Shown: in pieces, positions 1 through 57,848 of the stretch
Layout: every line of letters begins with the position of its first letter
How positions within the stretch are numbered: position 1 is the stretch's first letter
Origin: a virus
Reading direction: 5' to 3' (one strand)
IMG/VR virus record: IMGVR_UViG_3300032156_000001
Span: 124,001 to 188,000 of that record
DNA: 64,000 nucleotides
Program-made: the position numbers and the translations under genes
The notes under the pieces: model-generated
What the model saw: only the letters and a program-made list of their open reading frames with translations
What the model was told of the DNA's origin: nothing
Database searches by the model: none

Positions 1-1
1 C

Positions 2-139
2 TTGGCCAGCACGGCGGACAACCGCAACGAGCCGCGGTCGTTCCGCACGAGACAGGACGCGCTGCGCGCCTACCGCCGCGGCGAGCTCGGGCTTGGCGAC
101 CGCGTGGCCACGCTGGACGAAGGGGAGAAGAAGAAATGA
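2..139 (+). CDS. RNA polymerase beta-prime, N-terminal half (3' end only)
   Basis: Only the last 45 codons lie in the window; the 5' end is outside. The tail contains FRTRQDALRAYRRGELGLGD, which resembles the stretch of bacterial RpoC after the catalytic NADFDGD loop, where a phrase of the type 'EALxAYxxGEVxLHAxIKV' occurs. The reading frame stops at TGA 137-139, overlapping the next start codon by 3 bases. The matching continuation of beta-prime starts at 4346, so this is read as the end of the N-terminal part of a split polymerase subunit. The catalytic Mg-binding loop itself must lie upstream and is not visible. The identification rests on a short match plus context. Confidence 0.65.
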   Translation: MASTADNRNEPRSFRTRQDALRAYRRGELGLGDRVATLDEGEKKK

Positions 140-1253: not shown

Positions 1254-4200
1254 CTGGTTCACGGACGCCGTTTACGCCTCCGCGTTGCCGCCGGCTGTCA
1301 AGGAAGTGGCAGGGTGGGGCGGCGCCGGTCGGGCTTTCGGGGGGCGCACGTTCGCCGCCCCGGTCTTCGGGCGGCTCTTCGGACGGACGGCGGCGCCTGC
1401 GGCAGAACAGGCCGCTGCAGGCGCCGCTGCGCGCATCGTGCCGGTAGCAAAGGGGACCGCTGCGGCTGCCGGAACGGCCGCGCGGCCGGGCGCTTTGGCT
1501 GCACTCGGGCAACAGTTCCGGCCGGGCAACGTGGCGTCCCAGTTTTCCCGGCAGCTCGGCTTGGGCGGGTTGGGGACCGCCGCAAGAGGGGAACTGACGT
1601 CGCAATTGCGTTCCGGCGGGCGCATAGGGGAAGAACTGGTAAGGCAGTTCGGCCTTGGCAGCCCCGCGATGGCCGCGCTGGCGCCTGGCATAGCGACACG
1701 GCGCATGGCGGCGCAGCTGGCCCTTCGACCGCCGGTTCCCGCCTTGCAAGGCATCAAGTGGCAGGCGGGTGAAGCGGGTCCGCCCGGCTTGCGTTCCTTG
1801 GTGCCGTCGAGAATGCCGCACGAGCCGGGAGGGACAGTGGAACGCGCCGTCCCGGGGGAACAGTTGGGCGGCGTTCGCATCGGCGGGCGCACGCAGGCGT
1901 ACGCGGAGTCTCCCTCCGGGACCGCCACCGTGCTTCCCATCCTGTATCGGCCGCGGCCTGCGCCCGTACCGGCGCCGGCGGCGTCGATGACTACGCACGT
2001 CACGCCCGCGCAGGCGGCATCAGGCACGCCGGCAGCTGCGAAGACGCCCACGCCAGCGCAGGCCGCTTCGGGGACCATGACAACGTCGAGAAGCCGCGGC
2101 ATGAGCATGGCACCGGCGCAAGGCGAGCAGCCGGCCGCGCCCGGCCAGCCGCCGGCAGGGACCCCGTTGACGCAGGAAGCGTTCATGAAAGGCATCGAGT
2201 CGATACGGCCGGAGACGGGCTTCATGGCCGGCGTCAAGGGCATGCTTCCGTGGATGGCGCTAAGCTACGGACCGCAGATGCTCTCGGGTCTTTATCGCGG
2301 ATTCGTCAAGCCGGACGAGGAGGAAGGCCGCGCGCAGGAAGCGCAGGGCCCGCGCTATAGCCACGGCGTTTCGCCGTACGCTAGCCCAGTCGCCGAGTCG
2401 GAACGGTATCGGTACTGGCCGAAAGGCGCTGCGGACGTTTCCAAGGCCTTGGAAAAGTCGGCTAAGCGGACGTGGCGCTCGAAGTCCTTCCGCAAGTTCA
2501 CGCTGCTGCACAGGTTCCCCGGCAAGACGAGGATGTCGGCCATGCGCAGGAAGACCGTCGCGCGCAGCATGCCGTTCGCTGCCAAGTCGGCCTTCTACTG
2601 CGGCTTGGCGAAGCGTTGCGCCGAGCTCGGCCTTGACAGGGACGACGGCAGGGCCGTCGTGGAAGCCCTGCAGAAGCTGGCCTTCGACGGGGAAAATCCA
2701 CGGCCGGAAGAGGAGGAAATAGACCCGCTGTACACTTATGCCCCGGCGGTTGGCGCCGCCGGCGCGGGTCTTCTTGCTGGCGCCGGGACTGGCGGAGGTC
2801 TGCTGGCTTCCGGCGTGGGCGGCACAATGGTTGGCGGCATGGCGCTCTCTCCATTTGAAAGGTTCGCCGAGGGGGTGCGGAGGAGCCACGCGACTGAAGG
2901 TTGGGGAAAGAATTGGCCGCTGCTGTATTCGACCGGTCAGGGCTTCAAGAACATGGTGACCGGCGAATACGGATCCGATCCCTACGGGTCCGCCCCCGCT
3001 TCGGCGGGGAAGGCGGGAAAGGGCGGCGTCGGCACCGACCCGATGGCACTCGACAAGGCAATAGGCACGCTTAAAGATCCGGAAGTGTATAAGCGGATGA
3101 TTCGGGAGGAGAAAGAAAAGTTCGGGCCGATGAACGCGGAAAGATTGAAAGGTTTTCTCAATCTTGCGTATGAGCAAGCGCGAGTAGGCGGCGAGGTGTC
3201 CCCCGGCGAGGCCGCCGCGTCGGCCACCACGGGGATGATCCCCGGCATACGGGGGCTTGACCGCGCCCAAAAGAGCAAGATCCTTCGCAGGCTTCATCCC
3301 GAGTTGGACGCCGTGAAAACATTGCCGGCATTCCAGACGCCGGGGATCGGCGCGGCGCCCGGGGTAGGAACAGCGCCCGGAGTTAGCAGGCCGTCTGGCG
3401 CTGTCGGGCCGCAGGGCACAGCCGCTGCGCCCATGCCGGGTTCGCCGGCAGCTGCCCGAAGGCCCATGAGCGGCCAGAAGTCCACGCGCGACCAGGTCAG
3501 CCTGATAAGGCAGGAAGCAGCCACGCGGCAGGCGCCGGCCGCTCCGAAGGCCCCGGCGCCGACCGGCTCGCCCAGCGCCGCTGCGGCTCCGGCATCGACT
3601 GGTGCGGCACCGCGACCGTGGTCCGCCCGCGGCGGATTCGAGGGCGCTGAGGGGACCCGTTACGGCATGGCGCAGTCCGGCGGCGAATACGTGCCGCTCA
3701 GCGGCGGCGCCAACACGGAACCTGGCCAGACATACGGCGGCGCGGGGAGCTTCGACATAGACCGAAGGCGCGGCAGCATCGGACTGCCCGTGGCCGCGCG
3801 ACAAGCAATGCAATCGTTCCGTCAACCGCCCAGCGGCGCTTACGCTGCCCCGGAAGGAGCGGTCTACGGCCGCGGGTCCGCAATGGGCGGTCCCGAGCGG
3901 TTCTCGTTCGACCCGTCGGAACGGCTTGTGGGGACTGCGCTGTCAGCGCTGACGGGAGCGGGCGGCGGACAACCCGCCCCGGCGGCCCAGGGCGTGCCGG
4001 CGGTTGCCGCGCCGCCGGTGCCGTCGCGCATGGCGCGGAGGATCGAGGACGTCGGGGGCGGCGATGAACCGTCCGGTGCCTCGGCCAGGCTCCGGGCTGG
4101 CAGCGTCGCTACCTCGGTGCCGCAGGGGGCAGTGGCCCCGTCATTCGGCGACGTGGCGTCGTCCGTCGGCAAGCCGGGATTCAGTAAGCACATCACGGGT

Positions 4201-4345: not shown

Positions 4346-6190
4346 ATGCTCACGACGGTCGGACAGCTTCTGGTCAACGAGGAGCTCCCCCCGGGGCTGC
4401 GCGACCATTCGCGCGTCCTCGACCAGGCCGGCGTGGCCAAGCTGTTCGGCGAGATAGAGAAGGCCGACAAGGGCAAGTTCGCCGACATCAACAGGCGGCT
4501 GCACGACATCGGCCAGCTGGTGTCCACCAGGCAGGGCCGCGAGACGAGCCTGTCGCTGGACGCCCTGCGCCCTTCCAAGGGCGTCGCCGACGAGCGCGCC
4601 AAGCTGGACCGCGAGGTGAAACTGATCCTGGCCGGCCCGGGCGACACGGCGGAGAAGCACAGGAAGATCGTCGAGGCCATCGCCGGCAAGGCCGACAGGA
4701 TCACCGAGCTGAACTACCAGGAAGGCCTGAAGGACCGCAACCCGTTCGCGCTGCAAATCCTGTCGGGCAGCCGCGGCAACAAGGTACAGTTCAGGACGCT
4801 GCGCGCGGGCGACCTGTTGGTAACCGATCACAGGGATGAGCCCGTGCCGGTGCCAATGCTGTCGTCCTACGCTGAGGGGCTCGACCCGGTGCAGTATTGG
4901 GCGGGAGCGTATGGCGCCCGCCGAAGCGAGATTTTGAAAAAGTTCTCCACCCCGAAGGCCGGCTACCTCGGCAAGCAGCTCGCCATGGCGGCGCACAGGC
5001 TCGTCGTGACGGAGAAGGACTGCGGCACTTCCACCGGCGTGCCGGCGACGGCCGACGATCCCGACAACGAGGGTGCCGTCCTGGCAACCGACGCGGCCGG
5101 CATCCGGGCCGGGACGGTGCTGACGCCGGACATCATGCGGAAGCTGGGGGACAAGAAGATCCTCGTCAGGTCGGCGCTGACCTGCCAGGCGGAGCGCGGC
5201 CTGTGCGGCAAGTGCGCTGGCGTACGCGAGACAGGCGCGCTGCCGTCGATCGGCTCGCATATCGGCATCGCGGCGGCGCACGCGCTTTCAGAGCCGTTGT
5301 CACAGGGGTCTCTGGGCGCGAAACATTTGGGCGGGACCGTCTCCTCCGGCCAGAGATCGAAGGACGACGCGCTCGACGTGGTCAACAGGCTGGTCCAAGT
5401 GCCGGAGGCGTTCCCCGGCGCGGCGGCGGTCGCTACCAACGACGGCCGCGTGGAGCGCGTCGAGGATGCGCCGCAGGGCGGCACGACGGTCGTCATAGGC
5501 GGCAAGGAGCACTGGGCGGCGCCGGGCCAGAAGATCATGGTGAAGAAGAACGACGAAGTCGAAGCTGGCGACGTCATCAGCGACGGCATGCCTAATCCCG
5601 CCGACATCGTGAAGCACAAGGGCATCGGCGAGGGCAGGCGCTACTTCACGGACCTGTTCAGGAAGACGCTGGCGCAGCACGGATTCAAGCAGAACAGGCG
5701 GAACGTGGAGCTGGTGGCCCGCGGCCTGATCAACCACGTGCGCATCACGGGGCTGCACGGGCCGAACCACACCGTCATGGACGACCTGGTGGAGTTCGAC
5801 CCGCTCATGCGCGGCTACGAGCCCAGGGAGGGCAGCGTTTCCGTCACGCCGAAGGAAGCCAGGGGTTTCTTTCTGGAAAGGCCCGTGCTACATTACTCGG
5901 TGGGCACGCGGATCACGCCGCGGATGGCGGCGGAGCTGCACGGGAACGGCGTCAAGAGCGTCACGGCGCACCGTGAGCCGCCGCCGTTCGAGCCGGAGAT
6001 GGTGCGGGCGGTCGAAACGATGGCGCACGCGGACGACTGGATGCTGCGGCTGGGAGGCCTGTACGGCATCCAGCGCAGCTTCTTGAAGTCCGTCCACCGC
6101 GGCGGCACCTCCGATCCGACGGGGACGTCCTACATCCCGGCGCTGGCGGAGGGCACCGGCCTGCGGGGGTTGGAAGACGAGGAGGATTAG
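4346..6190 (+). CDS. rpoC: RNA polymerase beta-prime subunit, C-terminal half (bridge helix, zinc site, trigger loop)
   Basis: 614 aa. The N-terminus (TTVGQLLVNEELPPGL) aligns with the TTVGRAILWxIVPxGLP region of bacterial RpoC, exactly where the upstream fragment at 139 leaves off. Residues 182-216 match the bridge helix (YGARRSEILKKF, GYLGKQLAMAA). The second zinc site is complete: C226 in VVTEKDCGTSTG, and C280, C287, C290 in CQAERGLCGKC. Residues 303-331 match the trigger-helix region (IGIAAAHALSEPLSQ, HLGG). Compared with E. coli (numbers from memory), the trigger-loop His936 is kept but Arg933 is replaced by Gly. Later, EAGDVISDGMPNPADIV matches the ERGDVISDGPEAPHDIL segment. It probably assembles with the N-terminal half and phage beta-like subunits. 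No strong ribosome site precedes ATG 4346. Confidence 0.93.
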   Translation: MLTTVGQLLVNEELPPGLRDHSRVLDQAGVAKLFGEIEKADKGKFADINRRLHDIGQLVSTRQGRETSLSLDALRPSKGVADERAKLDREVKLILAGPGDTAEKHRKIVEAIAGKADRITELNYQEGLKDRNPFALQILSGSRGNKVQFRTLRAGDLLVTDHRDEPVPVPMLSSYAEGLDPVQYWAGAYGARRSEILKKFSTPKAGYLGKQLAMAAHRLVVTEKDCGTSTGVPATADDPDNEGAVLATDAAGIRAGTVLTPDIMRKLGDKKILVRSALTCQAERGLCGKCAGVRETGALPSIGSHIGIAAAHALSEPLSQGSLGAKHLGGTVSSGQRSKDDALDVVNRLVQVPEAFPGAAAVATNDGRVERVEDAPQGGTTVVIGGKEHWAAPGQKIMVKKNDEVEAGDVISDGMPNPADIVKHKGIGEGRRYFTDLFRKTLAQHGFKQNRRNVELVARGLINHVRITGLHGPNHTVMDDLVEFDPLMRGYEPREGSVSVTPKEARGFFLERPVLHYSVGTRITPRMAAELHGNGVKSVTAHREPPPFEPEMVRAVETMAHADDWMLRLGGLYGIQRSFLKSVHRGGTSDPTGTSYIPALAEGTGLRGLEDEED

Positions 6191-21145: not shown

Positions 21146-22153
21146 GTGAAAACCCAGTTCGCCAATCTTACCGGTCACAGCAGGTTCTTCGGTTACGTGG
21201 GGCCGCACGGCGGCACTGTGCCGCGCCGCAGGCGCAGGGAGCTTGACGGCGACCTGCGAACGGTGCTGGCCGGCGGCATGGGCAAGCGCTTCTCCAGGCA
21301 GCGTGAAATGGCCGCCATGACCGCCGCGGACGACGCCGGCCAGATCGGGCTGGTCGAGACGACCGATTACAGGTTCAGCCCGCGACACCTGACGGGGATA
21401 AGGGCGTGGTTCGACGCGACGCAGATGGGTCCCGTCAGTCCCGGCACGATCTACAGGTGGCCCGATCTGATAGCCAACAACGACGCCGTCGCCTTCGAGA
21501 GGGATCTGGCGCCGGCTTACGAACCGGCCGGGATCAACGGGTTGCCGGTCGTGGCGTTCGCGGGGGACGAGGGCCTCGTCATACCGTACTCAGCGTTCAC
21601 GGATCCCGGCGTCTTGAGCCTGTTCATAGTAGTGAAGATCGAGGATCTCAACGACGCCTGGGCTTTGTGGTACAGCGAGGGCTTCGACGGCGGGTACTAC
21701 TTGCAGATCAACAACCCCAGGAGCATGAAGGGCCGCGCGCCGGAACGGGGGCCGCGCAGCAGGCAAACGGAAGACAACCTGGGGCCAAGGCCGAGAGGAG
21801 CCGGCGGCTGCGTCAAGACCCAACTCTTCGTCGGTTCCACCTGGGTCGGGAACTCCAACTGGGGCGTCACGGCGCCGCCGGTGAACCTGGTCGCGCTGAC
21901 GATAGGCCCCGTCGACGGCGGCAGGACGCCGTGGTCCCTCAAGGTCAACAACGAAACCGTGTCGGGCACGCCCAGCGGCGCGTACGTGTCGGCGGGCGCC
22001 GGCGGCGACATCTGGCTGGCTGGCTGGGGCTCTCCGGCCGATCCGCTGCACAAGCTGAGGATCGGCGAGATGGTGCTCGTAGGCGGCATCCTTAGCGACG
22101 ACGATCTCGCCGCGCTCCGCGCGTATTTCAGCGCGAAATGGGGCACCGTCTGA
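21146..22153 (+). CDS. GYxPPHG module + LamG-like lectin domain protein, second copy
   Basis: 335 aa from GTG 21146. The module is at residues 12-55 (FFGYVGPHGGT, LDGDLRTVLAGGMGKRFSR). The lectin-like part follows directly with no Ser linker (GIRAWFDATQM, IYRWPDLIANNDA, GLPVVAFAGDEGLVIPY, SLFIVVKIEDLNDAW, WYSEGFDGGYYLQI, RIGEMVLVGGILSDDDLAAL). It is clearly a tandem duplicate of the upstream gene with different surface loops. A carbohydrate-binding fibre or decoration protein is the best reading. Confidence 0.7.
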   Translation: MKTQFANLTGHSRFFGYVGPHGGTVPRRRRRELDGDLRTVLAGGMGKRFSRQREMAAMTAADDAGQIGLVETTDYRFSPRHLTGIRAWFDATQMGPVSPGTIYRWPDLIANNDAVAFERDLAPAYEPAGINGLPVVAFAGDEGLVIPYSAFTDPGVLSLFIVVKIEDLNDAWALWYSEGFDGGYYLQINNPRSMKGRAPERGPRSRQTEDNLGPRPRGAGGCVKTQLFVGSTWVGNSNWGVTAPPVNLVALTIGPVDGGRTPWSLKVNNETVSGTPSGAYVSAGAGGDIWLAGWGSPADPLHKLRIGEMVLVGGILSDDDLAALRAYFSAKWGTV

Positions 22154-23784: not shown

Positions 23785-23802
23785 TTTCCAAGGCCTTGGA
23801 AA
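23785..23802. repeat. 18-bp perfect palindrome, copy 2
   Basis: TTTCCAAGGCCTTGGAAA in the 32-base gap between the gene ending at 23782 and the ATG at 23815, about 12 bases before that ATG. It would sit over the ribosome-binding region (only CTGGAGC remains as a possible site). Confidence 0.85.
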
Positions 23803-32802: not shown

Positions 32803-33979
32803 CGTGCTGCGGAACAGGAAGGCGGCGCTGCAGCGCCAGGCGGCGGATGAGCCGGAAAGCCGCGTGGCCACGGCGCGCGCGCGCACGGTGCATCACAACC
32901 CCTTCGAGCAGATGCGCCAGATGACCCACGAGCTGGGCAGCTCCATAGACATCATGCGGAAGCTGCTCGGCAAGGACTGGGCCGGCGGCAAGCCGTCCCC
33001 GCCCCTGCACAGTGACAAATCGACAGACCGTGTCATAACGACAAGACTGGGCCGTGGGCGCGTCGCGGCGGGCGTAACGCCCCAAGGGTTGGAGTCTCCT
33101 TACAGCGGCCTCGCCCGAGGCCGCCAGGGCCGCCAGGACGGGCTGATGAGGGACCGGCCTACCAGAGAGGCCTTCGCCACTTTGCTCGCGCCAGAGGCCT
33201 CAGAATCGAGTTCCGGCGTAGAGCGGCTGGTGACCGTGAGAGGCGCCGTACCGCACACGGAACTGCGTAAGGAGCCCGTTCCTGCACAACGAGCAGAACT
33301 GCCGACGGCCGCACGGGTGCAGCAGGTCATGAACGCCGACCTTCTGGCAAGGGGCACCTCGCCCACAGCGGCTAAGCTGGCCGGGCTGGTGAAGGAAGGC
33401 AAGCGGGAAGCGGTGGCTTCGATGCCGGCCAGCCAGACAGTTGCCAGGATCAAGGCGGAGCTGGGGCCGACGGCCGACAGGGCCTTGAAAGCGCCCAATG
33501 TGCAGCGCCTGGCCGCCGCGCGCGACTCACACCGTGACGCCATCCAGAGCCTGCTGACCGGGGCGGCGCGGAGCGGCAGGCTGAGGCTCGACGGCATGCC
33601 GTCTCCAGGGCCCGGTCGCCAGCCGGGGCCGGGCATTGAAACCGCCCTTGAACAACCCGGCGCGGAGGCCACGTCGGCGCTGCGCGGCAACGACGAGACG
33701 CACCTGGAAACGGCCAAGGCCGAACTGATGGAAAGGAGCGCGCCGTCGGGCCGGGCGTCGCTCAGGGAGCACACGGTGGCGACGGCGCGGGCGCAGCCGA
33801 AGGAAACGCCTGTGGAGGCGCCGGAGACGGAGCTGGCGCCCAACCGCGTCACGGCGTCGGCGGCCGCGCTGGCTAAACCGGAGCAGCGCAGGCGGGACGA
33901 CGGGCCGGGTAAGATGACCATAACGATTCGCAATCAGAACGGCCGGCAGCTGCTGACCGGCGACGCGGAGATGAGCTGA
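32786..33979 (+). CDS. short tape-measure protein candidate
   Basis: 397 aa, mostly Ala/Arg/Glu-rich and predicted helical (KREAVASMPASQTVARIKAE, DETHLETAKAELMERSAPSG), with a more ordered N-terminus (FEQMRQMTHELGSSIDIMRK) and a strand-like C-terminus (KMTITIRNQNGRQLLTGDAE). The only support for a tape-measure role is position: it directly follows the frameshifted chaperone, where the tape measure normally lies. At this length it would measure a short tail (roughly 60 nm at 1.5 angstrom per residue). No clear hydrophobic segments are visible, so another tail role is possible. The start overlaps the frameshift product by 17 bases. Confidence 0.45.
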   Translation: MASGPDVLRNRKAALQRQAADEPESRVATARARTVHHNPFEQMRQMTHELGSSIDIMRKLLGKDWAGGKPSPPLHSDKSTDRVITTRLGRGRVAAGVTPQGLESPYSGLARGRQGRQDGLMRDRPTREAFATLLAPEASESSSGVERLVTVRGAVPHTELRKEPVPAQRAELPTAARVQQVMNADLLARGTSPTAAKLAGLVKEGKREAVASMPASQTVARIKAELGPTADRALKAPNVQRLAAARDSHRDAIQSLLTGAARSGRLRLDGMPSPGPGRQPGPGIETALEQPGAEATSALRGNDETHLETAKAELMERSAPSGRASLREHTVATARAQPKETPVEAPETELAPNRVTASAAALAKPEQRRRDDGPGKMTITIRNQNGRQLLTGDAEMS

Positions 33980-34446
33980 TGGCCGACATCTTCAATTCCG
34001 TGCCTGGCGTGATCGCCGTGCTGGAGGACGAGTTCATCATCCCCGGCCGCGTCCACGTCGAGGGTTTCGAGCCGGAGATGGCGCTCATCTCGGGCATCGA
34101 CTACTCCCAGTTGACGGACCATCAGTTCCAGACGTCGCTGGAGCGCAAAGTTTACATCTACGTGTTCGGCGACGCCATGGGGGAGGTCAGGGTCCACGGC
34201 TTGGCGTTCCCGGCGTTGTGCGACAATATCGGCGGCACGAACGGGCTGATCGAGGTTCTGGACTACTACAAGAACAACCGCGCGTCGGCGCAGCCGACGC
34301 CGGTCCAGGTGTTCATCGGCTCGGACGAGGAGGTCATAACCGGCTACCTGACCGCCGTGCAGATCAGGACGAAGGCGATAGCGGACGATCCTTCGTCCTT
34401 CTTCAGCGCGTGGACGATGATGATCAACGCACTGCCGAGGACGTGA
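33979..34446 (+). CDS. baseplate/tail tube-like protein
   Basis: 155 aa with a one-base overlap with the previous stop. Beta-rich with strands such as IPGRVHVEGFEPEMALI, RKVYIYVFGDAMGEVRVHGL and PVQVFIGSDEEVITGYLTAV. Length and strand pattern resemble small tube-fold or tail completion proteins. No family named. Found between the tape-measure candidate and the baseplate hub, so a tail-tip or tube-initiator role is likely. Confidence 0.55.
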   Translation: MADIFNSVPGVIAVLEDEFIIPGRVHVEGFEPEMALISGIDYSQLTDHQFQTSLERKVYIYVFGDAMGEVRVHGLAFPALCDNIGGTNGLIEVLDYYKNNRASAQPTPVQVFIGSDEEVITGYLTAVQIRTKAIADDPSSFFSAWTMMINALPRT

Positions 34447-34447
34447 C

Positions 34448-35245
34448 ATGATAAACCACGGCCGGACGCTCCTTCTCAACCGTGACGGTGCCACCAGGCC
34501 GCCGCTAACGTTCTTCCTGGAGGAATACGTGCCGGCGGACTTCGGCGCGGTGGCGCTTCCGGGCGGGCTGGCGCTGGTGCACGGCCGGCTCATGCCGCCC
34601 GGCGCCGACGACGCTTTCGCCAACCTGATGATGCGCCTTTACATGCAGCTGCTCCATTCCAACGAGCTGGCGGACGACCTCCTGGCCCTGGACCCGAGGA
34701 TCACCTACGACCTGAAGCGCACCGTCGTGGCGACCCGATCGCAGACGGCGTTCTGCCCGCTGACCGCCTCGGCGCGGCCGTACGAGCTGGACTTCGTCGG
34801 CGGCGTGGAGGCGTCGCTGCAGGCGCCGCAGCTGCGGACCGAGTGGATCCTGACGGCGGTCGGCGCGGACCGGGTGAAGGCGGTCCGCGTGTCCACCGGC
34901 GAGACCGCCTATACCGACGTGACGATAACGGACGGCGAGACCAGCCCGATAGACCTGCCCGGCCAGCGCAACTACAAGGCCCGCGTCGGCGGGCTGCCGG
35001 GCGCGCTGCCGGTCGGCGCCGAGTGGTCTGCGCAGACGTTCGTCATCCCGCATATCGACGCCAGCGGCGTGCTGACGCGGCTGGACACGATGGGCAACGA
35101 GGCCCTCATCGACCTGTTCCCCAACCGTGAGCCGTACATCACTTACAAGAAGCTGTGGACCGACCACGTCTACGCCGAGTACAGGCTCGGCGGCGTCCTG
35201 CTCGCCTTCGTCTACCGCGCGGAGGAGGAGCGAACCGGTGGGTGA
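34448..35245 (+). CDS. baseplate-region protein, unknown
   Basis: 265 aa, globular, starting one base after the previous stop. A mixed first half (MRLYMQLLHSNELADDLLAL) and a beta-rich second half (VGADRVKAVRVSTGETAYTD, SPIDLPGQRNYKARVGGLPG). No motif assignment possible. Directly before the hub gene, with 8 bases of overlap, so it is probably a baseplate or hub-associated component. Confidence 0.55.
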   Translation: MINHGRTLLLNRDGATRPPLTFFLEEYVPADFGAVALPGGLALVHGRLMPPGADDAFANLMMRLYMQLLHSNELADDLLALDPRITYDLKRTVVATRSQTAFCPLTASARPYELDFVGGVEASLQAPQLRTEWILTAVGADRVKAVRVSTGETAYTDVTITDGETSPIDLPGQRNYKARVGGLPGALPVGAEWSAQTFVIPHIDASGVLTRLDTMGNEALIDLFPNREPYITYKKLWTDHVYAEYRLGGVLLAFVYRAEEERTGG

Positions 35246-36881
35246 CCCGGTCCAGGCCTTCTACACGCGGGTCCGCGCGCGGGCTTATGTCGGCGGCGAG
35301 AAGATCCCAATCACCGGGTTCCAGGCATCGTACGTGCTGAACTCGGTGCCGGAGGTGACCGTCACCGTGCCGATCGGTAGGACCGGCGACGACTTCTCCG
35401 TGTCGGAGGCGGAGAACCTGGTTTCCGGGCTGTCGCCGTACACCACGCTCCGTGTCGAGCTGGAGGCGACGCCGGACCCGAACACCGGTTCCGCGCCGAG
35501 CGGCAAGGATCCCGGGTTTCCCAGCGGCGTCGTTGACGTGTTCGACGGCTTCATCTCCGAGGCGTCGTACACGCGCGACAGGGTAGCAAAGTCGGTCTCC
35601 GTCACGCTGCGCGGCTTCGGCAAGCTGGGCGCGCTGGGCGGCGCCACGCGCTTCGTGGACGGCCTGATGATAGGCGGCCAGCACAACGGCGAGGAGGTCC
35701 TCAACTCGAACATAGCGAAGCAGAGCATCGGCTTCGTGATATTCAAAACGCTGATGGCCAAGATGGAGTCCATACCGGAGGCCGTCTGGGAGAACGGGCT
35801 CAAGCCGCTGTTCAGCGAAATCATCGAGAAGGCCGCCGACGTCTTCTCGTCGTCCTTCGGGTTCAGGACGGGCGGCGGCGCCAGCTTCGCCAGGCAGGCG
35901 CTGGAGATGATCGACGCGGGCAACAACCGCTTCGACACCGACATGACCCTGCGGGCCGAGTACAACAGCCTGCCGGGCATAGAGAAGAGCATGGTCAGGC
36001 AGATGGCGCAGCACTTCTACGGCTGGGTGTCGCGCGGCTACGGCGGCGATTCCAGCCTGCTGTCCTTCCTGTTCGAGGCGGCGCGCGCGTACCAGTTCGT
36101 GATAGTGCCGTGCGTGAAGGATGCAGCCACGGTGCCGCTCTTCTTCAACCTCGACGCCGAGCCGCCGGCCAGCCAAGTCATAGACCCGGACGAATACTGG
36201 ACCGTCGAGTCGGAACCGGCGCCCGGCGGCCGGTCGCTGTTCTCGCCGGATTTCTGGGCCTTCGTCACGACGGTGGTGCTGACGTCTCCGTTCGACTTCA
36301 GCGAGGAGCGGATAGACAGCCCGATCGTCTGCAGGCCGGTGGGCGTCGGCACCGTGAACGGCAGGGGCCCGCTGATGGGCTACACCGGCCGGCTGATAGC
36401 CGAGCCGGCGCCGGCGTGGGTGCTGCCGTACTCGCCGGCGCCGGGGGGCACGGTCCTGCCGGGCATACCGGAAATGGGCGCGCTGAAACAGGGCATTCCG
36501 CCCGTGGATTCCCCTGGGGATGCCCTGAAGAGATTCTGGCGGTCGGGCCTTGGCGATGCCGTGGCGGACACGATGCTGCACTCCATCCTGTTCGAGCGGC
36601 GCGTGCGGCAGGTGACCGGCAGGCTGCGCCTGGACCTGGCCCCGGGCAGCCTCGTGAAGCTGAACACGGCGGGCGAGCTGTTCACCGGGATCACGAACAC
36701 TTTCTACGGCATCGTCGGCGCCGTCAGCATCTCCGTCGTGGAGCACGGCGACCACGGCGTGGCGAACACCACACTCCTCCTGACGCACCTTCGTACGGAG
36801 GACGAGCACAAGGAACTGACAATGCCGAGCCATCCGCTATATACTGGCGAATGGCTGGGCGGGAAGCTGATAGACTACTGA
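35238..36881 (+). CDS. baseplate hub protein (gpD/gp27-like)
   Basis: 547 aa from GTG 35238, preceded by GGAGGAGGAGCGAACC; the frame is open further upstream but only as a shadow of the previous gene. The start VGDPVQAFYTRVRARAYVGG and the strands DVFDGFISEASYTRDRVAKS and VSVTLRGFGKLGALGG look like the first hub domain of gpD-type proteins. After a helical middle, the end RQVTGRLRLDLAPGSLVKL and YGIVGAVSISVVEHGD resembles the second barrel, which positions the spike. It would form the trimeric hub to which the spike binds. A promoter and a palindrome copy overlap its 3' end and gap. Confidence 0.7.
   Translation: MGDPVQAFYTRVRARAYVGGEKIPITGFQASYVLNSVPEVTVTVPIGRTGDDFSVSEAENLVSGLSPYTTLRVELEATPDPNTGSAPSGKDPGFPSGVVDVFDGFISEASYTRDRVAKSVSVTLRGFGKLGALGGATRFVDGLMIGGQHNGEEVLNSNIAKQSIGFVIFKTLMAKMESIPEAVWENGLKPLFSEIIEKAADVFSSSFGFRTGGGASFARQALEMIDAGNNRFDTDMTLRAEYNSLPGIEKSMVRQMAQHFYGWVSRGYGGDSSLLSFLFEAARAYQFVIVPCVKDAATVPLFFNLDAEPPASQVIDPDEYWTVESEPAPGGRSLFSPDFWAFVTTVVLTSPFDFSEERIDSPIVCRPVGVGTVNGRGPLMGYTGRLIAEPAPAWVLPYSPAPGGTVLPGIPEMGALKQGIPPVDSPGDALKRFWRSGLGDAVADTMLHSILFERRVRQVTGRLRLDLAPGSLVKLNTAGELFTGITNTFYGIVGAVSISVVEHGDHGVANTTLLLTHLRTEDEHKELTMPSHPLYTGEWLGGKLIDY
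36816..36845 (+). promoter_or_regulatory. promoter for the sigma-factor gene
   Basis: CTGACA at 36816-36821, an 18-base spacer, and TATACT at 36840-36845; both hexamers match the consensus at five of six positions. The expected start of transcription is near 36852, about 64 bases before the sigma ATG at 36916, and the palindrome lies in between. Confidence 0.55.
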
Positions 36882-36884
36882 AGG

Positions 36885-36902
36885 TTTCCAAGGCCTTGGA
36901 AA
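36885..36902. repeat. 18-bp perfect palindrome, copy 3 (extends to 22 bp)
   Basis: TTTCCAAGGCCTTGGAAA, here flanked by GG and CC so that symmetry extends to 36883-36904. It lies between the sigma-factor promoter and its start codon and may be an operator. Confidence 0.85.
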
Positions 36903-36915
36903 CCCGGGGGACGCG

Positions 36916-37617
36916 ATGGAGCAGGCTTACGAGAAGTGGCGGAAGGCCCCGACGCAGGAGAACATGGCCGCGCTGCTGGACGCGGCCGACCCCGTCGTCG
37001 ATTCGGCGCTGTCCGCGTACGCGCGCGGGGACAAGGCGCTCAAGTCGCGCGCCAGGATCCTCGCCGCCGGCGCGTTCAAGACCTACGACCCGCAGAAGGG
37101 CACCAAGCTGCGGACCCACGTCATGACGCAGCTGCAGCCCCTGTCGCGGGCGCACAGGGAGCGGACGGCGGTCGTCAGGACGCCGGAGCGGGTGGCTGCC
37201 GACTCGTACCGGCTGAGCCAGGCGCAGCAGGAGTTCGCGGACAGGCACGGCCGGGAGCCCAGCACCGCCGAGCTGGCCGACGCCTCCAACCTGTCGCTGA
37301 AGCGGATAGCGCACGTGCGCGGCTTCAAGGGCCCGCTGGCCGAGTCGTCGCTGACCGAGATGGAGGAGGACTCGCCGGCCACGTTCTACCCCGGCGTCCA
37401 CAAGGAGGACCCGAGGAAGATCTGGCAGGAGTACGTCTACCACGACCTGGACCCGATCAACCAACAGATCCTGGAACGGAAGGCGGGCATGCATGGCAAG
37501 CCGGCGCTGTCGAACAACGAGATCGCGGCCAAGCTGGGCGTGACGCCAGGCGCAGTGTCGCAGCGCAGCGCGGCCATAGCGGCCAAGCTGGCACAGGGCG
37601 AGGGCGTGGAGCTATAG
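36916..37617 (+). CDS. phage sigma factor (sigma70 family)
   Basis: 233 aa. Residues about 24-83 correspond to a reduced region 2 (ARILAAGAFKTYDPQKGTKL, VMTQLQPLSRAHRER), which contains the YDPQKGTKLRT equivalent of the 'FDPxRGxKFST' motif. Residues 87-135 match region 3 (VRTPERVAADSYRLSQAQQE, HGREPSTAELADASNLSLKR). Residues 165-228 match region 4 with the HTH (ALSNNEIAAKLGVTPGAVSQ). There is no long region 1. Such a factor could direct host or phage polymerase to phage promoters. It sits inside the baseplate gene cluster, with its own promoter (36816) and palindrome (36883-36904) upstream. Confidence 0.85.
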   Translation: MEQAYEKWRKAPTQENMAALLDAADPVVDSALSAYARGDKALKSRARILAAGAFKTYDPQKGTKLRTHVMTQLQPLSRAHRERTAVVRTPERVAADSYRLSQAQQEFADRHGREPSTAELADASNLSLKRIAHVRGFKGPLAESSLTEMEEDSPATFYPGVHKEDPRKIWQEYVYHDLDPINQQILERKAGMHGKPALSNNEIAAKLGVTPGAVSQRSAAIAAKLAQGEGVEL

Positions 37618-37626
37618 GAGTCGCGG

Positions 37627-38550
37627 ATGAAGACCAAGATCCAGAACGCCACCCACGGCGCGTTGAACCTCGGGTTCGTCCCGCCGCACGGCGTCAGGCT
37701 GCCGCGCGGCGGCTCGCGCACGTTCGACGGCGGCCTGCGGACCGTCCTGGCTTCCGGCCTGAAACGGTATTCGCGGCAGAGGGAGCTGCGCGTCATGACC
37801 GAGGTCGAGGAGACGGGCACCGTCGTGCTGACGGTCTGGCGCGGGAGCGAGGACCCGATCCTGATCCGGGACGGCTATTTCGTGATCGACGGCGGCCGGC
37901 TCGGCGGCCCCGCGTACGAATGGGACGACATCGAGGCGGCGGGCCTTCACGTGCCGGGATTCGACGACGACGAGGATTACGACGACGATACGTCGGACCT
38001 CATCGCCATGCCGTTCCCCTTCGACTTCTTCGGCTGGTCCTGCAGCGGGTTCAGGGTGTGCAGCAACGGGTTCATAGAGTTCGACAACGACGACGACGAT
38101 TGCTGCAGCCAGTACCAGCTGCCTGACGTGTACTGCCCGCTGAACATGGCCGCGGCCTTCTTCGCCGACCTGTACCTGCGCGCCAACGTGTCCAAGGTGC
38201 GGTACAAAGTGCTCGGCACGGCGCCGAACCGGAGGCTCGTCGTCACCTTTTTCAACGTGATCGGCTACTTCAAGACCGCCGACGACTTCACCTTCCAGAT
38301 CACCGTGTACGAGGGCCCCTCCGGCGCCGTCCGCTGCCAGTACAAGAGGATGGCGCTCGGCCCCGTCGAAAGCCGCATCGATACCGGCCTGGTCATCGGG
38401 CTGAACAGCCAGACCGGGCTAGAGGGCATAACTTATCAGTTCATAAGCGAAGACGACGTGCAAAAGCTGGCCGATCTCGGATTGGACGAGGTGGTGGTCG
38501 GGTTCAGGAAGGTCGACCAGGTGTCGCCGTGGCCCAGGAAGGAGGGATGA
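37627..38550 (+). CDS. GYxPPHG module + nidogen-like 'SNGFIEF' domain protein
   Basis: 307 aa. The N-terminus (LGFVPPHGVRL, FDGGLRTVLASGLKRYSRQR) is the fourth copy of the module seen at 19742-21260. The C-terminal part resembles the beta domain often seen in surface proteins: IAMPFPFDFFGWSCSGFRVC, SNGFIEF, a Cys/Asp-rich loop, LNMAAAFFADLYL, GTAPNRRLVVTFFNVIGYFK, TFQITVYEGPSGAVRCQYKR. It probably decorates the baseplate region or binds a host surface. GGAGTCGCGG precedes the start. An acidic Asp/Glu-rich stretch lies in the middle (DDDEDYDDDTSD), which could bind Ca2+. Confidence 0.65.
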   Translation: MKTKIQNATHGALNLGFVPPHGVRLPRGGSRTFDGGLRTVLASGLKRYSRQRELRVMTEVEETGTVVLTVWRGSEDPILIRDGYFVIDGGRLGGPAYEWDDIEAAGLHVPGFDDDEDYDDDTSDLIAMPFPFDFFGWSCSGFRVCSNGFIEFDNDDDDCCSQYQLPDVYCPLNMAAAFFADLYLRANVSKVRYKVLGTAPNRRLVVTFFNVIGYFKTADDFTFQITVYEGPSGAVRCQYKRMALGPVESRIDTGLVIGLNSQTGLEGITYQFISEDDVQKLADLGLDEVVVGFRKVDQVSPWPRKEG

Positions 38551-38975: not shown

Positions 38976-39449
38976 GTGGCCACTTCCGTGAACTACAGCG
39001 GCAGGAAGGTCGACATCCTGATCTTCCAGGGCGCGCAGCCGGCGGGGATGGTGCCGGTGACCCTCGGCTTCGGCGAGGCCGGCTTCCTCACCACGGGGAT
39101 ACAGAAGGTCGCGCAGACGTTCGCCGTGTTCTTCCTGAACGACAAGGGGTCCGTGCCGGCGCAGCCGGACTACGGCACGTCGTTCATGCAGCAGTTCCGC
39201 CAGGGCTACCTGCAGGACGAGTCGTCGGTGAAGTCGGCCTTCGCGTTCGCGTCGGACTCCGCCGTGCGCGCCATGCGGGCGCAGGCGGCAGCGGCGGACC
39301 TGCCGGCCGATGAGACGATAAAGTCGGCGAGGCTGCTGGGTTACAGCCTCGACAAGGCGACCGGGAACTTGCAGTTGAGGGTGCAGCTGACGTCGGAGGC
39401 CGGGGCGACGAGGACGGTGTTCCTCCCCGTCCCGGTCACGATCAAGTAG
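38976..39449 (+). CDS. gp25-like baseplate wedge protein
   Basis: 157 aa from GTG 38976, one base after the previous stop. The core KVAQTFAVFFLNDKGSVPAQ and PDYGTSFMQQFRQGY resemble the lysozyme-like fold of the T4 gp25/W family, where a 'DYG' turn is common. The C-terminal beta strands (NLQLRVQLTSEAGATRTVFL) also fit. It initiates sheath polymerisation at the baseplate. The baseplate J-like gene directly follows, as is usual. Confidence 0.7.
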   Translation: MATSVNYSGRKVDILIFQGAQPAGMVPVTLGFGEAGFLTTGIQKVAQTFAVFFLNDKGSVPAQPDYGTSFMQQFRQGYLQDESSVKSAFAFASDSAVRAMRAQAAAADLPADETIKSARLLGYSLDKATGNLQLRVQLTSEAGATRTVFLPVPVTIK

Positions 39450-39457
39450 GAGCACGC

Positions 39458-41104
39458 ATGTCCACGGAACTGAATCCGGCGGATCTCGACCAGGAGGCCG
39501 TCGCGCAGGCGGAGGAGACGCTTGCGTCCTGGCTGCAGACCGAGTACCCCTCCATGGACCTCACGCAGGGGCGCGTCCTGCGCGACCTCCTGATACGCCC
39601 GGCCGCCATCTTCCACGTCATGAACCAGACGGACGTCAACAGGCTGCGCCAGTCGATGTCGCTGCTGGCGATCGAGCAGGACCCGACGCTGGCCGACGAC
39701 ACTATCGTCGACGGCATCATGTCGAACTACGGCATCGCCCGCGACCCTGGCTCGAAGGCCGCCGGGCAGGCCGTGATAGTGATACCCAACCTTCTCACCA
39801 CGTACGTCGCGCCGGGGACGGTGTTCGCGTACGGCTCCCTCAACTTCGTGACGGCGGGCCCGTTCGTCGGCGTCACGACGGTGGACGCGGTGATCGACCC
39901 GGCCGTGCAGCGGCTCATCACGCTGCGCAGGGACCGGACGTACATGTTCGTCGTGGACGTCGTGGCGCAGGGGACGGGCTCGGAATACTGGGTGCGCAAG
40001 GACACCGCCTTCGACTCCGTGTCGCCGACGCCGACGGGCCTTGTCACCGCGTACGCCTACGCCGACTTCTCCGCCGGCACCGACGCGCAGACGAACGAGG
40101 ACCTGGTCAACGAGGTCAAGAACGGCGTGGCCGCCAAGGTGTTCAGCGGCAGGGCGCAGATAGAGGCGCTGCTGCTGAAGACCCTGCCGGCGATAGCGGC
40201 GATCAGCATCATAGGGTTCGGCGACGCGGAGATGGTCCGCGACAGGCACAACATCTTCGCCATCAGCACCGGCGGCAAAGCTGACCTGTACGTGCGGACC
40301 CAGGCCGTGCCGCAGACGGTGCGGCTGGTCAAGACGGCCGTGCTGGTGGACCTGCCGACGAAGACGTGGCAAGTGACACTGGCCCGCGACGATGCGCCGG
40401 GCTTCTACGACATCGACTCGATCCTGCCCACGGACGCCCCCGAGGGCACCGGCAGCCTGGAGATCGGCTCCGAGACGCGCGGGCTGGACCTGTCGGCGCC
40501 GAACGATGAGTTCGTGCCTGACATAGACAGCCTGACCGAGGGCGGGTTCTCCCGCTACCAGACCGACGTCGTCAGGTTCGTCGATCCCGACACGGACGGC
40601 AGCGTGGCGGCGAAGGATTACGCCGTCTACGTGCGGTACATGCCGAACCTGGTGGCGCTGCAGGACCTGGCGGTCAGCCGCGACAACCGGAACCCGCAGG
40701 CCGACTACCTGGTCCGCGCGCCGGTCCCGGGGTTCTGCACCATGAACATCACGGTGAGGCACCTGCCGTCGGTGGAGGCCCCCGACGGGGACGACATCAA
40801 GCTGGCCGTGGCCGACAGGGTCAACAGGCTGGGCTTCGGGCTCGGCAAGGTGTCGGCGTCGGTGGTCTTCGACGCCATCTACGACATCATCGGGCATGGG
40901 CCGTCCGTGATGGCCGTCTCGCCGCTGGACATGTTCTGCCGGATCGTGAAGCCGGCGGGCGGCGTGATCGACCTCCGGTCGGCGAACGAGCTGGTCGCGC
41001 CGTTCCTGCCGGCGGAGGGCGTGACCTCGAGGACGGTGGCGTTCTACCTGGACCCCGACGACGTGGACGTCGTCGTGGAGCAGGTCGACTCGCTGCCGGT
41101 GTGA
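39458..41104 (+). CDS. baseplate J / gp6-like wedge protein
   Basis: 548 aa. The N-terminal helix-rich part (ADLDQEAVAQAEETLASWLQ, MDLTQGRVLRDLLIRPAAIF) and the core strands (VIVIPNLLTTYVAPGTVFAY) are typical of Baseplate_J proteins. Many internal repeats of beta-hairpins follow, and the end (PDGDDIKLAVADRVNRLGFG, VVFDAIYDIIGHGPSVMAVS) resembles the C-terminal dimerisation domain of gpJ/gp6. It forms the ring of wedges around the hub. GGAGCACGC precedes ATG 39458. Confidence 0.75.
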   Translation: MSTELNPADLDQEAVAQAEETLASWLQTEYPSMDLTQGRVLRDLLIRPAAIFHVMNQTDVNRLRQSMSLLAIEQDPTLADDTIVDGIMSNYGIARDPGSKAAGQAVIVIPNLLTTYVAPGTVFAYGSLNFVTAGPFVGVTTVDAVIDPAVQRLITLRRDRTYMFVVDVVAQGTGSEYWVRKDTAFDSVSPTPTGLVTAYAYADFSAGTDAQTNEDLVNEVKNGVAAKVFSGRAQIEALLLKTLPAIAAISIIGFGDAEMVRDRHNIFAISTGGKADLYVRTQAVPQTVRLVKTAVLVDLPTKTWQVTLARDDAPGFYDIDSILPTDAPEGTGSLEIGSETRGLDLSAPNDEFVPDIDSLTEGGFSRYQTDVVRFVDPDTDGSVAAKDYAVYVRYMPNLVALQDLAVSRDNRNPQADYLVRAPVPGFCTMNITVRHLPSVEAPDGDDIKLAVADRVNRLGFGLGKVSASVVFDAIYDIIGHGPSVMAVSPLDMFCRIVKPAGGVIDLRSANELVAPFLPAEGVTSRTVAFYLDPDDVDVVVEQVDSLPV

Positions 41105-41111
41105 GGCGCGG

Positions 41112-41672
41112 ATGGGCAATCCGATCAAGTGCTTTATGGTCGAGCGAACCCGCACGGTACGGATCTCGCTGCGACGCTACAAGGGCAGCGCGACGGGGGA
41201 GAAGTGCCCCGGCAAGTACGGCTACCACGACGCCAGCAAGGTCGTGCGCGACGAGCCGTACGACAAGAACAACGAGGGCTACGGCGACCGGCCGGGCGGT
41301 CCGTTCCCGAAGGGCCATCCCGACTGGCCGAAGAAGTGCGACTGGTGCCCGTACGAGTTCGCCGACGGCGATTCATGGCAGCTGGGCGGCGAGCGCCTGT
41401 ATAAGAATTCGGAGACGGGCGAGCTGTTCACGCTGCGCAAGGCGCCCGTCGGCGCCATGTGGGACGCCTACTGGATGAGCCGTCGCGGCCCCGACGGCAT
41501 CTGCCTGGTGGTGCAGACGCCGGGCGGCGACTGGATGATAGACTACCCGGCGCGCGGCGTCGGCCAGCCGTGGCACCGAACGGGCGTCCCGCCAAAGGTG
41601 ACGGCGGTTCCGTCGATCATGATAGGCTCGTACCACGGCTGGCTGAGGGACGGTTTCCTGGTGGAGGCCTGA
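41112..41672 (+). CDS. Cys/Trp-containing baseplate-region protein, unknown
   Basis: 186 aa, starting 7 bases after the J-like gene stop. Contains a lone Cys pair flanked by Trp (PKKCDWCPYEFADGD, about residues 74-88) and an earlier Cys (GEKCPGKYGYHDA). The rest is beta-rich (GICLVVQTPGGDWMIDYPAR). No catalytic motif is visible. It is placed among wedge genes and overlaps the next start as TGATG. Confidence 0.55.
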   Translation: MGNPIKCFMVERTRTVRISLRRYKGSATGEKCPGKYGYHDASKVVRDEPYDKNNEGYGDRPGGPFPKGHPDWPKKCDWCPYEFADGDSWQLGGERLYKNSETGELFTLRKAPVGAMWDAYWMSRRGPDGICLVVQTPGGDWMIDYPARGVGQPWHRTGVPPKVTAVPSIMIGSYHGWLRDGFLVEA

Positions 41673-43150
41673 TGGCACAGTACCCGCCGGAAGACTTCGA
41701 TCGCGGCCGGACGATGATGCAGCAGCTCGGCTCGTTCTGGAACCTGATCTTCCAGGACGCCGACAGGCTGCAGGCGCACGTCCGTTCGTCCGGCAACGAA
41801 CACGGCCAGACGTACCTCGACTTCCTCGAGGCCGTGGCCTGCGTGTCGCGTTTCAACGTGCCGGTCTTCCATGCGGAGAACTGGTACTTGCTGACGATCC
41901 GCAGGAGCGACACCAAGGCGGTCATGTCGATCTACCAGCCGGACGACCTCGTCTACGGGCCGCAGCCGGGCGGCGGCGCTCGCCCGGAGGGCTTCACCCA
42001 GGTGTACGGCGGCGAGGACTGGCCCGGCTTCGTGCAGGCGGCGCTGCCGGACGATATGGTCGACGCGCCATACGCGCTACACAATCTGGTCGTCAACCCC
42101 AGCCTGACGCTGGCATACGGCGTGGATTACGACGTGGACGGCGGGAAGAAGGCTATCCGGTTCCGCGACGACCCGTTCAACAACGCGCTGATCCCCAGCC
42201 GCGACATCGTCGATTCGGCCGGCAACGTGGTGGATACCGAGATAGCGCTGTGGGCCTACAAGGGCCAGTTCGACTTGGACTACGTCTACATGCAGTTCGG
42301 GTACGCGTTGGGCCTGAAGCTGGCCAGCAGCCAAGGCTACAAGGACCTGCTCAACGCCTTTTGGGACATGTACATGCAGGGCCCGTCGGTGGCCCTGCTG
42401 GGAGCGTTCCTGTCGGCCGTGTCCGGCACGCCAACGTGCCTCGAGGCGGCCGAGACGGTGGAGTTGGTGACGGCGAATGAGATCGAGAGGATCGTGGCGA
42501 CCGACCAGCACGTCTACAGGTTCCCGCTGGGGGCGACGATCCTGGTGGCGGCTGGCGACGTCATCCATGCCGGGGAGGCCATTTCGGACGCTTTTCAGGT
42601 GAAGGAGCTCAGCGGCGCCGACTTCGACCTGAGCCTTCTTTCCGAGCTGGTCGTCTCGGGCAACATGGCTTCCGGCAACTTCGTGGCCCCGCTCGTGTTT
42701 GAGAACCGCGACGCCGCGCTGAACTACGTCGGCCTGGACCCCGACGGCAAGGCTATAGTGACCTTTGAGACATCCGGCATCCCGGCCGACGTGGCGACGT
42801 TCTGGGCGGCCGTTCACGCGCGCGGGAAGGCGGCCGGCAAGACCCTGGCGGAGTATCTGGACATCCGCGCCGACCCTGTCGGCGAGCCCGGCCCGGCCAG
42901 CCTGCCGGCCACGGTGAACCCGGCGGAGTTCCTCATAGAAAACCTCATGCGGTCGAATCTTTTTATCCTCGTGCTGAGGGAATCGTCCTTCGGGCCGGGC
43001 GCGGTGGGCGCCGATTTGTGCCGTTTGTTGAGAGAGGTGTTGCCGCCGCATACGGCATACGTGACAATCCTGGAGCCGGTGTCGAGCTCGTCGTCAAGTT
43101 CGTCGTCGGGTAGCCCGAGCGGTTCGAGTTCCAGCGGCGGGCCGCTGTAA
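41672..43150 (+). CDS. baseplate wedge/peripheral protein with Ser-rich tail
   Basis: 492 aa from ATG 41672; the in-frame sequence upstream is an Arg/Pro-rich shadow of the previous gene and is not included. Globular protein with a helical N-terminus (TMMQQLGSFWNLIFQDADRL), middle beta domains (GVDYDVDGGKKAIRFRDDPF) and a helical end (LREVLPPHTAYVTILEPV), finished by a Ser/Gly tail (SSSSSSSSGSPSGSSSSGG). The size and order (after gp25 and J-like genes) suggest a gp7- or gp8-like peripheral wedge protein; not proven. Confidence 0.6.
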   Translation: MAQYPPEDFDRGRTMMQQLGSFWNLIFQDADRLQAHVRSSGNEHGQTYLDFLEAVACVSRFNVPVFHAENWYLLTIRRSDTKAVMSIYQPDDLVYGPQPGGGARPEGFTQVYGGEDWPGFVQAALPDDMVDAPYALHNLVVNPSLTLAYGVDYDVDGGKKAIRFRDDPFNNALIPSRDIVDSAGNVVDTEIALWAYKGQFDLDYVYMQFGYALGLKLASSQGYKDLLNAFWDMYMQGPSVALLGAFLSAVSGTPTCLEAAETVELVTANEIERIVATDQHVYRFPLGATILVAAGDVIHAGEAISDAFQVKELSGADFDLSLLSELVVSGNMASGNFVAPLVFENRDAALNYVGLDPDGKAIVTFETSGIPADVATFWAAVHARGKAAGKTLAEYLDIRADPVGEPGPASLPATVNPAEFLIENLMRSNLFILVLRESSFGPGAVGADLCRLLREVLPPHTAYVTILEPVSSSSSSSSSGSPSGSSSSGGPL

Positions 43151-45040: not shown

Positions 45041-45958
45041 ATGCCGACTTACGGCGGCCTCTGGGACGTCGATTGGCTCAGCGCCAACTCGCAGCGGAGG
45101 TATCCCTTCCACGACGAGGCTAGCCTCCGCGACGCTTCCGACAGCGTCACGCTGCCTAACGACTTCGTCGTGGACCTGGTCTGGCCGGTCCACTACGACG
45201 TCGGCCTCGACCCGACGCTGTTCCACCTGCTGTCCATAAGCGTCTTCGGCACCGGCGTGACGGTGACGCTCGGCTACGACGGCGCCGCGGTCGGCAGCGT
45301 CACGATCGACTTCGCCACCTTCGTCAGGTTCGGCACGTACGTCGTCGCCGGCACGGGAATCTGCTTCGACACCGTCGGCAAGATAACGATAGGCTCGATA
45401 GACAACGCCAGGCTGCTGGCCGGGACGTACTCGTTCTCCGTCGCCAACGGCAGGCTGGTCCCCGCGGCGGTCAGGCCGGACATACGCGGCGTCAGCTCCA
45501 TCGTGCTCCAGAACGGCGAGGACCTGAGCGACCCCCTGCAGGGCAACGTGATCCTGAGGGCGGGGCGCAACATAGAGCTGAACATGGTGCCGGGCGCGGG
45601 CCCGTTCGACCCCAGCATCATCTACATCAGCGCCATCTCCGGCGCGGGCCTCAACGTCGGCTGCGACTGCGGCGAGGCCGCCGACCTGCCGTGCATAAAG
45701 ACGATCAACGGCGAGGGGCCCGACGAGTACGGGAACTTCGACCTGCTGGAGAGCGAGTGCCTGAAGCTGACGGCCATAGCGAACGGGCTCCAGCTGACGG
45801 ACGACTGCTCGCACCCGTGCTGCGGCTGCGACGAGCTGAACGTGGTGCTGCAGGCCGCCGAGACCATGAAGGCGCAGATCAACAGTCTTGAGCAGCTGGC
45901 GAACCGCATCGAGATCGCCATGGGCACGCTCAGCTTCAACCTGTTGGCGTCGAGGTGA
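45041..45958 (+). CDS. YPF/TING-family virion protein 1 of 5
   Basis: 305 aa. Founder-like member of a five-gene run. Shared N-terminal signature DWLSANSQRRYPFHDEASLR (an aromatic-x-x-x-N-x-x-x-x-YPF pattern). A strand-rich middle (GTYVVAGTGICFDTVGKITI) is followed by a C-terminal 'CIKTINGEGPDEYGNFDLL' segment like the TING..PD..GN repeats in phage fibres. A Cys-rich piece (CDCGEAADLPC, SHPCCGCDEL) and a coiled-coil end (MKAQINSLEQLANRIEIAMG) follow. Probably trimerises as part of a fibre. Confidence 0.6.
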   Translation: MPTYGGLWDVDWLSANSQRRYPFHDEASLRDASDSVTLPNDFVVDLVWPVHYDVGLDPTLFHLLSISVFGTGVTVTLGYDGAAVGSVTIDFATFVRFGTYVVAGTGICFDTVGKITIGSIDNARLLAGTYSFSVANGRLVPAAVRPDIRGVSSIVLQNGEDLSDPLQGNVILRAGRNIELNMVPGAGPFDPSIIYISAISGAGLNVGCDCGEAADLPCIKTINGEGPDEYGNFDLLESECLKLTAIANGLQLTDDCSHPCCGCDELNVVLQAAETMKAQINSLEQLANRIEIAMGTLSFNLLASR

Positions 45959-57522: not shown

Positions 57523-57848
57523 GCGTCAACCTTTCCAAGGCCTTGGAAACGCGGGTAGCCGGCGCAAGGACCATCATCCTCACCGACGGCGCGCTGCTGG
57601 CTGTGGCGGGGCGTGGCGACATCCTCAAGGAGTTCCCGTTCTTCCGCGCCCCCGCCGCCAACGCCGTCCGCACGTGTTGCGGCAGGCGCGCGGACCGCAA
57701 CCTGCTGGCCACTCATTGCCGGATCGTGCGGGAGGCGCTCATCCGCCTGCCGGCCGACCGGAAGCAGGTCCTGAAGCGGTTGCTCGGCGCCGGCAAGGTC
57801 GTCCTGTTCGTGCGCGGCGCGCGCGGCGTCGAGCAGCACGAGTTGTAG
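57519..57848 (+). CDS. small Arg/Leu-rich protein
   Basis: 109 aa. ATG 57519 overlaps the previous stop (ATGA); the longer in-frame alternative lies inside that gene. The palindrome codes residues 5-10 (LSKALE). Middle: GARTIILTDGALLAVAGRGD, Cys pair RTCCGRRADR, helical end (LPADRKQVLKRLLGAGKVVL). No family recognised. Confidence 0.55.
   Translation: MSVNLSKALETRVAGARTIILTDGALLAVAGRGDILKEFPFFRAPAANAVRTCCGRRADRNLLATHCRIVREALIRLPADRKQVLKRLLGAGKVVLFVRGARGVEQHEL
57532..57549. repeat. 18-bp perfect palindrome, copy 4
   Basis: TTTCCAAGGCCTTGGAAA, 13 bases downstream of the start codon of the 57519 gene, where it encodes LSKALE. Confidence 0.85.

Follow-up and report, generated by a model that had tools for sequence, protein, structure and literature searches.

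A sigma70-family factor encoded in the baseplate block of a polymerase-encoding phage: a candidate subunit of a virion-packaged RNA polymerase

Introduction

A gene for a sigma70-family factor lying among the baseplate genes of a phage raises the question of which polymerase that factor serves and when it acts. The gene lies in a stretch of 64,000 nt (the window), which is part of a 188-kb viral record. A sequence-only reading had proposed that it is separately timed and repressed through a palindrome in front of its start codon, and had linked its product to the split RNA polymerase of the same phage. According to reviews, RNA polymerase (RNAP)-encoding jumbo phages are without sigma factors and sigma-encoding ones are without polymerases.

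Results

Position of the sigma gene in a conserved baseplate block

By tblastn, homologues of the sigma protein were found in Salmonella phage Arash (gp10) and Vibrio phage D69. The genes of the block in the window are as follows.

33979..34446, + strand: homologue of Arash gp6, a virion structural protein, in the conserved baseplate block
35127..36881, + strand: upstream gene, called the hub in the earlier reading; its start may be 35238, and it occupies the cell-wall hydrolase/hub position of the relatives
36916..37617, + strand: sigma70-family factor with regions 2-4, 233 aa, by Pfam/PHROGs, a family profile and a structure model
37627..38550, + strand: 307-aa gene adjoining the sigma gene; no counterpart found in the relatives; its paralogues in the window are genes 19742, 20057 and 21146
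38976..39449, + strand: homologue of Arash gp12 (virion structural), downstream of the sigma gene
39458..41104, + strand: baseplate wedge protein, homologue of Arash gp13 (phrog_6, E 5e-8)
41672..43150, + strand: homologue of Arash gp14 (virion structural), by homology

The sigma gene had been placed between hub and wedge genes. The wedge was confirmed by its PHROGs match, and the hub could be upheld by position only; the upstream gene was unrecognised by profile search and by Pfam/PHROGs, and homology to the hydrolase/hub of the relatives was not detected.

In Arash and D69 the block comprises a large gene (annotated as a cell-wall hydrolase in Arash), a small gene, the sigma gene, a gene of about 125 aa, a gene of about 165 aa and a gp6-type wedge gene. 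A single-sequence scan of viral contigs for sigma relatives gave none, and a three-member sigma profile/alignment query gave 29 further homologues in metagenomic viral contigs, several of them near-duplicates. The gene order gp6 homologue, hydrolase, sigma, gp12/gp13 homologues was found in Arash, in D69 and in 27 of the 29 contigs (some near-duplicates), where a contig was counted if its wedge or gp12-type neighbour followed this order; L031 and L059 had no recognised downstream neighbours. The sigma of the window phage is orthologous to the Arash-like virion sigmas and shares their baseplate synteny. No near DNA match was found in phages. Where gene boundaries could be resolved, most relatives have the start of the sigma gene abutting or overlapping the gene before it, so that no intergenic room is left there for a promoter or operator; the 34-nt spacer with the palindrome is peculiar to the window phage.

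Several duplicated genes were seen in the window. The paralogous family at 19742-20017, 20057-21127, 21146-22153 and 37627-38550 has its last member directly after the sigma gene, three neighbouring paralogues (45041-45958, 45962-47347 and 47349-49046) lie past the baseplate block, and a tandem duplicated pair (16534-17046 and 17100-17732) lies upstream of the major capsid gene.

A divergent member of the sigma70 family

The sigma ORF alone matched Pfam Sigma70_r3 (E 3.5e-9), and its residues 53-228 matched phrog_351, RNA polymerase sigma factor (E 7.7e-16, single sequence); for the window protein alone, Pfam r2 gave no match and r4 was below the cut-off. The family profile of 21 viral relatives aligned over regions 2-4 with SigA, RpoS and HrdB (E 6.7e-22), and within the family Pfam detected Sigma70_r3 in 21/21 members, r2 in 5 and r4 in a few. 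The AlphaFold model of the sigma had a mean pLDDT of 86; its sigma3 and sigma4 parts are joined by a linker of low confidence (residues 145-163). In Foldseek, the top PDB matches of this model were all sigma factors. Regions 2, 3 and 4 were thus found in order by profile-PDB alignment, Pfam and the model, and the earlier assignment to the sigma70 family was borne out. Judged by its sequence and predicted fold, the product is a real bacterial-type sigma factor.

The melting aromatics of region 2.3 (the W-W pair, a primary-sigma feature) are not kept, the family alignment showing KLSTHV.N against KFSTYATWW. Because divergent sigmas may lack this pair, its loss limits what can be said of the promoter type and not of family membership; promoter recognition by such a sigma may differ from that of sigma70.

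Promoter-like sequences of the window phage and its relatives

36816..36845, + strand: sigma70-type promoter CTGACA-18-TATACT, 10/12, with a predicted start site near 36852

The promoter described ahead of the sigma gene is present exactly, and it sits within the 3'-terminal part of the upstream gene (stop codon at 36879-36881), which corrects the earlier description. In the 188-kb record, sigma70-type sites of at least 10/12 numbered 6 on the + strand and 0 on the - strand (0.9 per strand expected), and sites of 9/12 numbered 25 and 5, respectively. Nearly all genes lie on the + strand, so this bias is as expected of real promoters. All six sites of at least 10/12 preceded a called + gene start by 29-84 nt, in a genome of which only 12.5% lies within 120 nt upstream of such a start. 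Since the six best sites all stand just upstream of coding-strand gene starts, the sigma-gene promoter, which is one of them, is probably genuine, and the window phage appears to use sigma70-type promoters. The sites are of the TTGACA/TATAAT type and might be read by the host polymerase. With a probably genuine promoter in front of it, the sigma gene could be transcribed separately in the window phage, and to this extent the suggestion of separate timing stands.

In Arash, GGTATAAG was enriched upstream of minus-strand genes (11/46 intergenic regions versus 0.1 expected). It was found at 29-36 sites in each of Arash (OQ632216) and seven relatives (records of L044, L048, L050, L051, L052, L056 and L057), with at most one site on the sigma/structural-gene strand, and it resembles an extended -10 element with no evident -35. 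The motif was not enriched in the window phage, which does not use it. In Arash and these seven relatives the promoter-like TGGTATAAG, with 29-36 copies per genome and nearly all of them opposite the structural-gene strand, was noted; it is unmentioned in the Arash paper.

A palindrome repeated mostly at gene 3' ends

36883..36904, unstranded: 22-bp perfect palindrome GGTTTCCAAGGCCTTGGAAACC, starting 2 nt after the upstream stop and ending 11 nt before the sigma ATG
2438..2455, unstranded: palindrome copy TTTCCAAGGCCTTGGAAA, inside a gene
23785..23802, unstranded: palindrome copy, with a stop 3 nt ahead of its 16-bp core and a start 13 nt beyond it
57532..57549, unstranded: palindrome copy, with a stop 10 nt ahead of its 16-bp core, which falls just within an overlapping ORF

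The 22-bp palindrome reported between the promoter and the sigma start codon is exact, and it is the longest perfect palindrome in the 64-kb window. With up to two mismatches allowed, the 188-kb record holds 14 copies of its 16-bp core (9 exact copies, 4 with one change and 1 with two), and the reversed control gave 0. Of the 14 copies, ten begin 2-13 nt past the stop of the preceding gene, three are intragenic and one is unassigned; in five cases a called start follows at a distance of 1-19 nt. The 14 sites, from G000 4783 to 181533, are spaced more evenly than random (CV 0.41, P 0.0008). The exact 18-mer was absent from the other viral contigs searched, and the examined parts of five relatives showed no repeated palindrome; the window phage differs in this from Arash. 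In bacterial genomes the palindrome was found as 12 single copies in 12 unrelated species (rough chance estimate, about 4), and since these copies are single and near the rough chance level, no host regulon is seen.

This distribution bears on the view that the sigma gene has a timing of its own, under repression by a phage protein that acts at the palindrome and at its other copies. In favour of this view are the probably genuine promoter, the exact palindrome that separates it from the start codon, and the number of specific copies. However, a sigma70-like promoter lies within 120 nt upstream of 1/14 copies, that of the sigma gene only, which indicates that the palindrome does not serve as a promoter operator in general. 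The copies track stop codons instead; the gap is missing in most relatives, the repeat is missing in those examined, and no integrase was found in the window phage. The repression half of the earlier proposal is thus not supported, and regulation of the sigma gene in this manner is improbable.

A ParB/Noc-like site, a classical terminator and a coding motif were considered for the repeat and rejected. The first was suggested by the half-sites, which resemble parS, but no ParB_N domain was found in the 188-kb record. The copies are without the T tract of a classical terminator, and some are intragenic. All four ORF-internal copies read xSKA/PLE in the same frame, as a coding motif would, but most copies are intergenic; the shared frame was treated as the one doing least harm. 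Stem variants are only A-to-G changes (giving G-U pairs) and the other changes fall in the loop, although these few events are not decisive for an RNA hairpin. Dispersed short repeats in small intergenic gaps are known as the stoperators of mycobacteriophage L5 and the start-associated sequences of cluster K, whereas in the window phage, for which no integrase was detected, the repeat is a perfect palindrome of 18 bp that goes with stop codons. We take the palindrome to be a phage-specific repeat, mostly at gene 3' ends, whose role would not be tied to the sigma gene, and a putative sequence-specific protein-binding or RNA-hairpin site. It is possible that one protein binds all 14 sites.

Co-occurrence of the sigma gene with a phage RNA polymerase

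1..139, + strand: 3' end of the RNA polymerase beta-beta'N fusion gene (whole gene G000:117765-124139; L110:9765-16139)
4346..6190, + strand: C-terminal half of RNA polymerase beta' (Rpb1 domain 5), homologue of Arash gp216

The beta-beta'N fusion is a protein of 2124 aa comprising beta and the N-terminal half of beta' (Rpb2_6, Rpb1_1, Rpb1_2 and DFDGD). The polymerase alignment is colinear across the beta' clamp-helix segment, which is the docking site of sigma2 in bacteria. The same fusion is present in Arash and D69. A beta' homologue was found in 12/12 other sigma-carrying records of at least 165 kb, and in those records of this size that were checked, the polymerase consisted of the beta-beta'N fusion and a separate beta'C. 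A search at E 0.01 detected the sigma in 0/9 other RNAP phages (phiKZ, AR9, YerA41, RHph_TM30, IME392, Va2, Carin-5, MD-2021a and SA 1306 Kay), and the phiKZ-type polymerase group is reported to have no recognisable sigma (PMC7824862, PMC7598289).

Two features of the beta part were noted separately. An intein-like insertion (CYSEDTEVLT ... LADGSF ... WCGN/S) was recognised by eye and had no Pfam intein match, and a 2H phosphoesterase domain is inserted (PF22547, E 4.8e-6).

Sigma and polymerase in Arash virions

In sucrose-purified Arash virions, the sigma Gp10 was detected with 24 unique peptides and 100% coverage, the beta subunit Gp206 was the most detected protein, and the beta' subunit Gp216 gave 1210 spectra (PMC10585845). 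The earlier suggestion that the sigma works with the split polymerase is strengthened by the joint presence of these proteins in the Arash virion (PMC10585845) and by the co-occurrence of their genes. The paper reports the sigma in virions with no remark on its family, its conserved position and synteny, or promoters (PMC10585845). From its published table we calculated spectra per residue as a semi-quantitative measure: 2.00 for the sigma, 2.31 for beta-beta'N and 2.00 for beta'C, with 0.66-1.51 for the neighbouring Gp8 and Gp12-Gp14, and 1.21 and 1.85 for the near neighbours Gp11 and Gp16.

T4, like the window phage, encodes a divergent sigma; this factor, gp55, works with the host polymerase in late-gene transcription, and its gene lies outside the baseplate cluster. 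The sigma studied here might have a similar role, steering host or phage polymerase to late genes, with its presence in Arash virions due to carry-over. Its gene lies among late structural genes and is presumably expressed with them, and the Arash authors, who list other enzymes as well, mention that abundant enzymes could ride along with particles (PMC10585845). Against carry-over, the density of sigma peptides and spectra equals that of the polymerase subunits and exceeds that of Gp8 and Gp12-Gp14, and the other Arash sigma, Gp196, is not in the virion protein list (PMC10585845). A purely late role is on balance unlikely.

The conserved position between hydrolase/hub and wedge genes, the presence in Arash virions (PMC10585845) and the divergent region 2.3 would also suit a protein that has kept the sigma fold and become a structural part of the baseplate. 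However, regions 2-4 are all retained, the family tracks the polymerase, and in Arash the spectral density of the sigma matches that of the polymerase; a structural role is very improbable.

Discussion

Sigma70 membership, the conserved baseplate position, co-occurrence with the polymerase and the content of Arash virions together point to a packaged holoenzyme. The reading we favour, with a probability of roughly 0.6, is that the sigma is a subunit of the phage's own polymerase, packed in the virion with beta-beta'N and beta'C and used for early transcription. In its favour are also the colinear polymerase alignment and the GGTATAAG sites of Arash and its relatives. Against it count the loss of the region 2.3 tryptophan pair, the possible carry-over of enzymes with Arash particles, the spectra per residue of Gp11 and Gp16, and the sites of the window phage, which are not GGTATAAG but of a type open to the host polymerase. 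The sigma would be synthesised late, together with the baseplate genes, and be packaged in the virion along with the beta-beta'N fusion and beta'C. Polymerase and sigma would enter the host along with the DNA, and the holoenzyme would open transcription at phage promoters ahead of any phage protein synthesis. In the window phage, the extra promoter could let the sigma be made at other times too. The sigma probably serves to start early transcription, rather than being mainly a separately repressed gene.

From these observations we infer that the sigma binds the phage polymerase and that early promoters are served by the holoenzyme. Arash gp10 and gp206/gp216 provide the closest comparison, with an orthologous sigma, the same baseplate position and the same polymerase layout as in the window phage. 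Presence of the sigma in virions was demonstrated for Arash (PMC10585845), whereas packaging in the window phage is predicted by analogy. The two phages differ in that Arash has a second sigma, gp196, the like of which was not found in the window phage (one protein query), and in the promoter motif. The nearest functional analogue is the phiKZ type (phiKZ, AR9), in which a bacterial-type multisubunit polymerase is carried in the virion for early genes; those phages have no recognisable sigma and other subunit splits, whereas the window phage has a sigma and the beta-beta'N fusion with beta'C.

A literature phrase search for a virion-packaged sigma found no paper. Whether a widespread phage lineage packages and injects a complete bacterial-type holoenzyme, including a sigma70-family factor from the baseplate operon, is in our judgement evenly poised. 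Contrary to the reviews, this lineage has both polymerase and sigma, and the sigma is in the virion of the single member analysed. If packaging of the holoenzyme is true, it would break the rule that a phage has its own multisubunit polymerase or its own sigma, and not both. It would also yield a naturally occurring polymerase that is injectable, depends on a sigma and has a simple predicted promoter (the TGGTATAAG motif in Arash relatives), and the way in which a virion polymerase finds its first promoter would become directly testable in an isolated phage.
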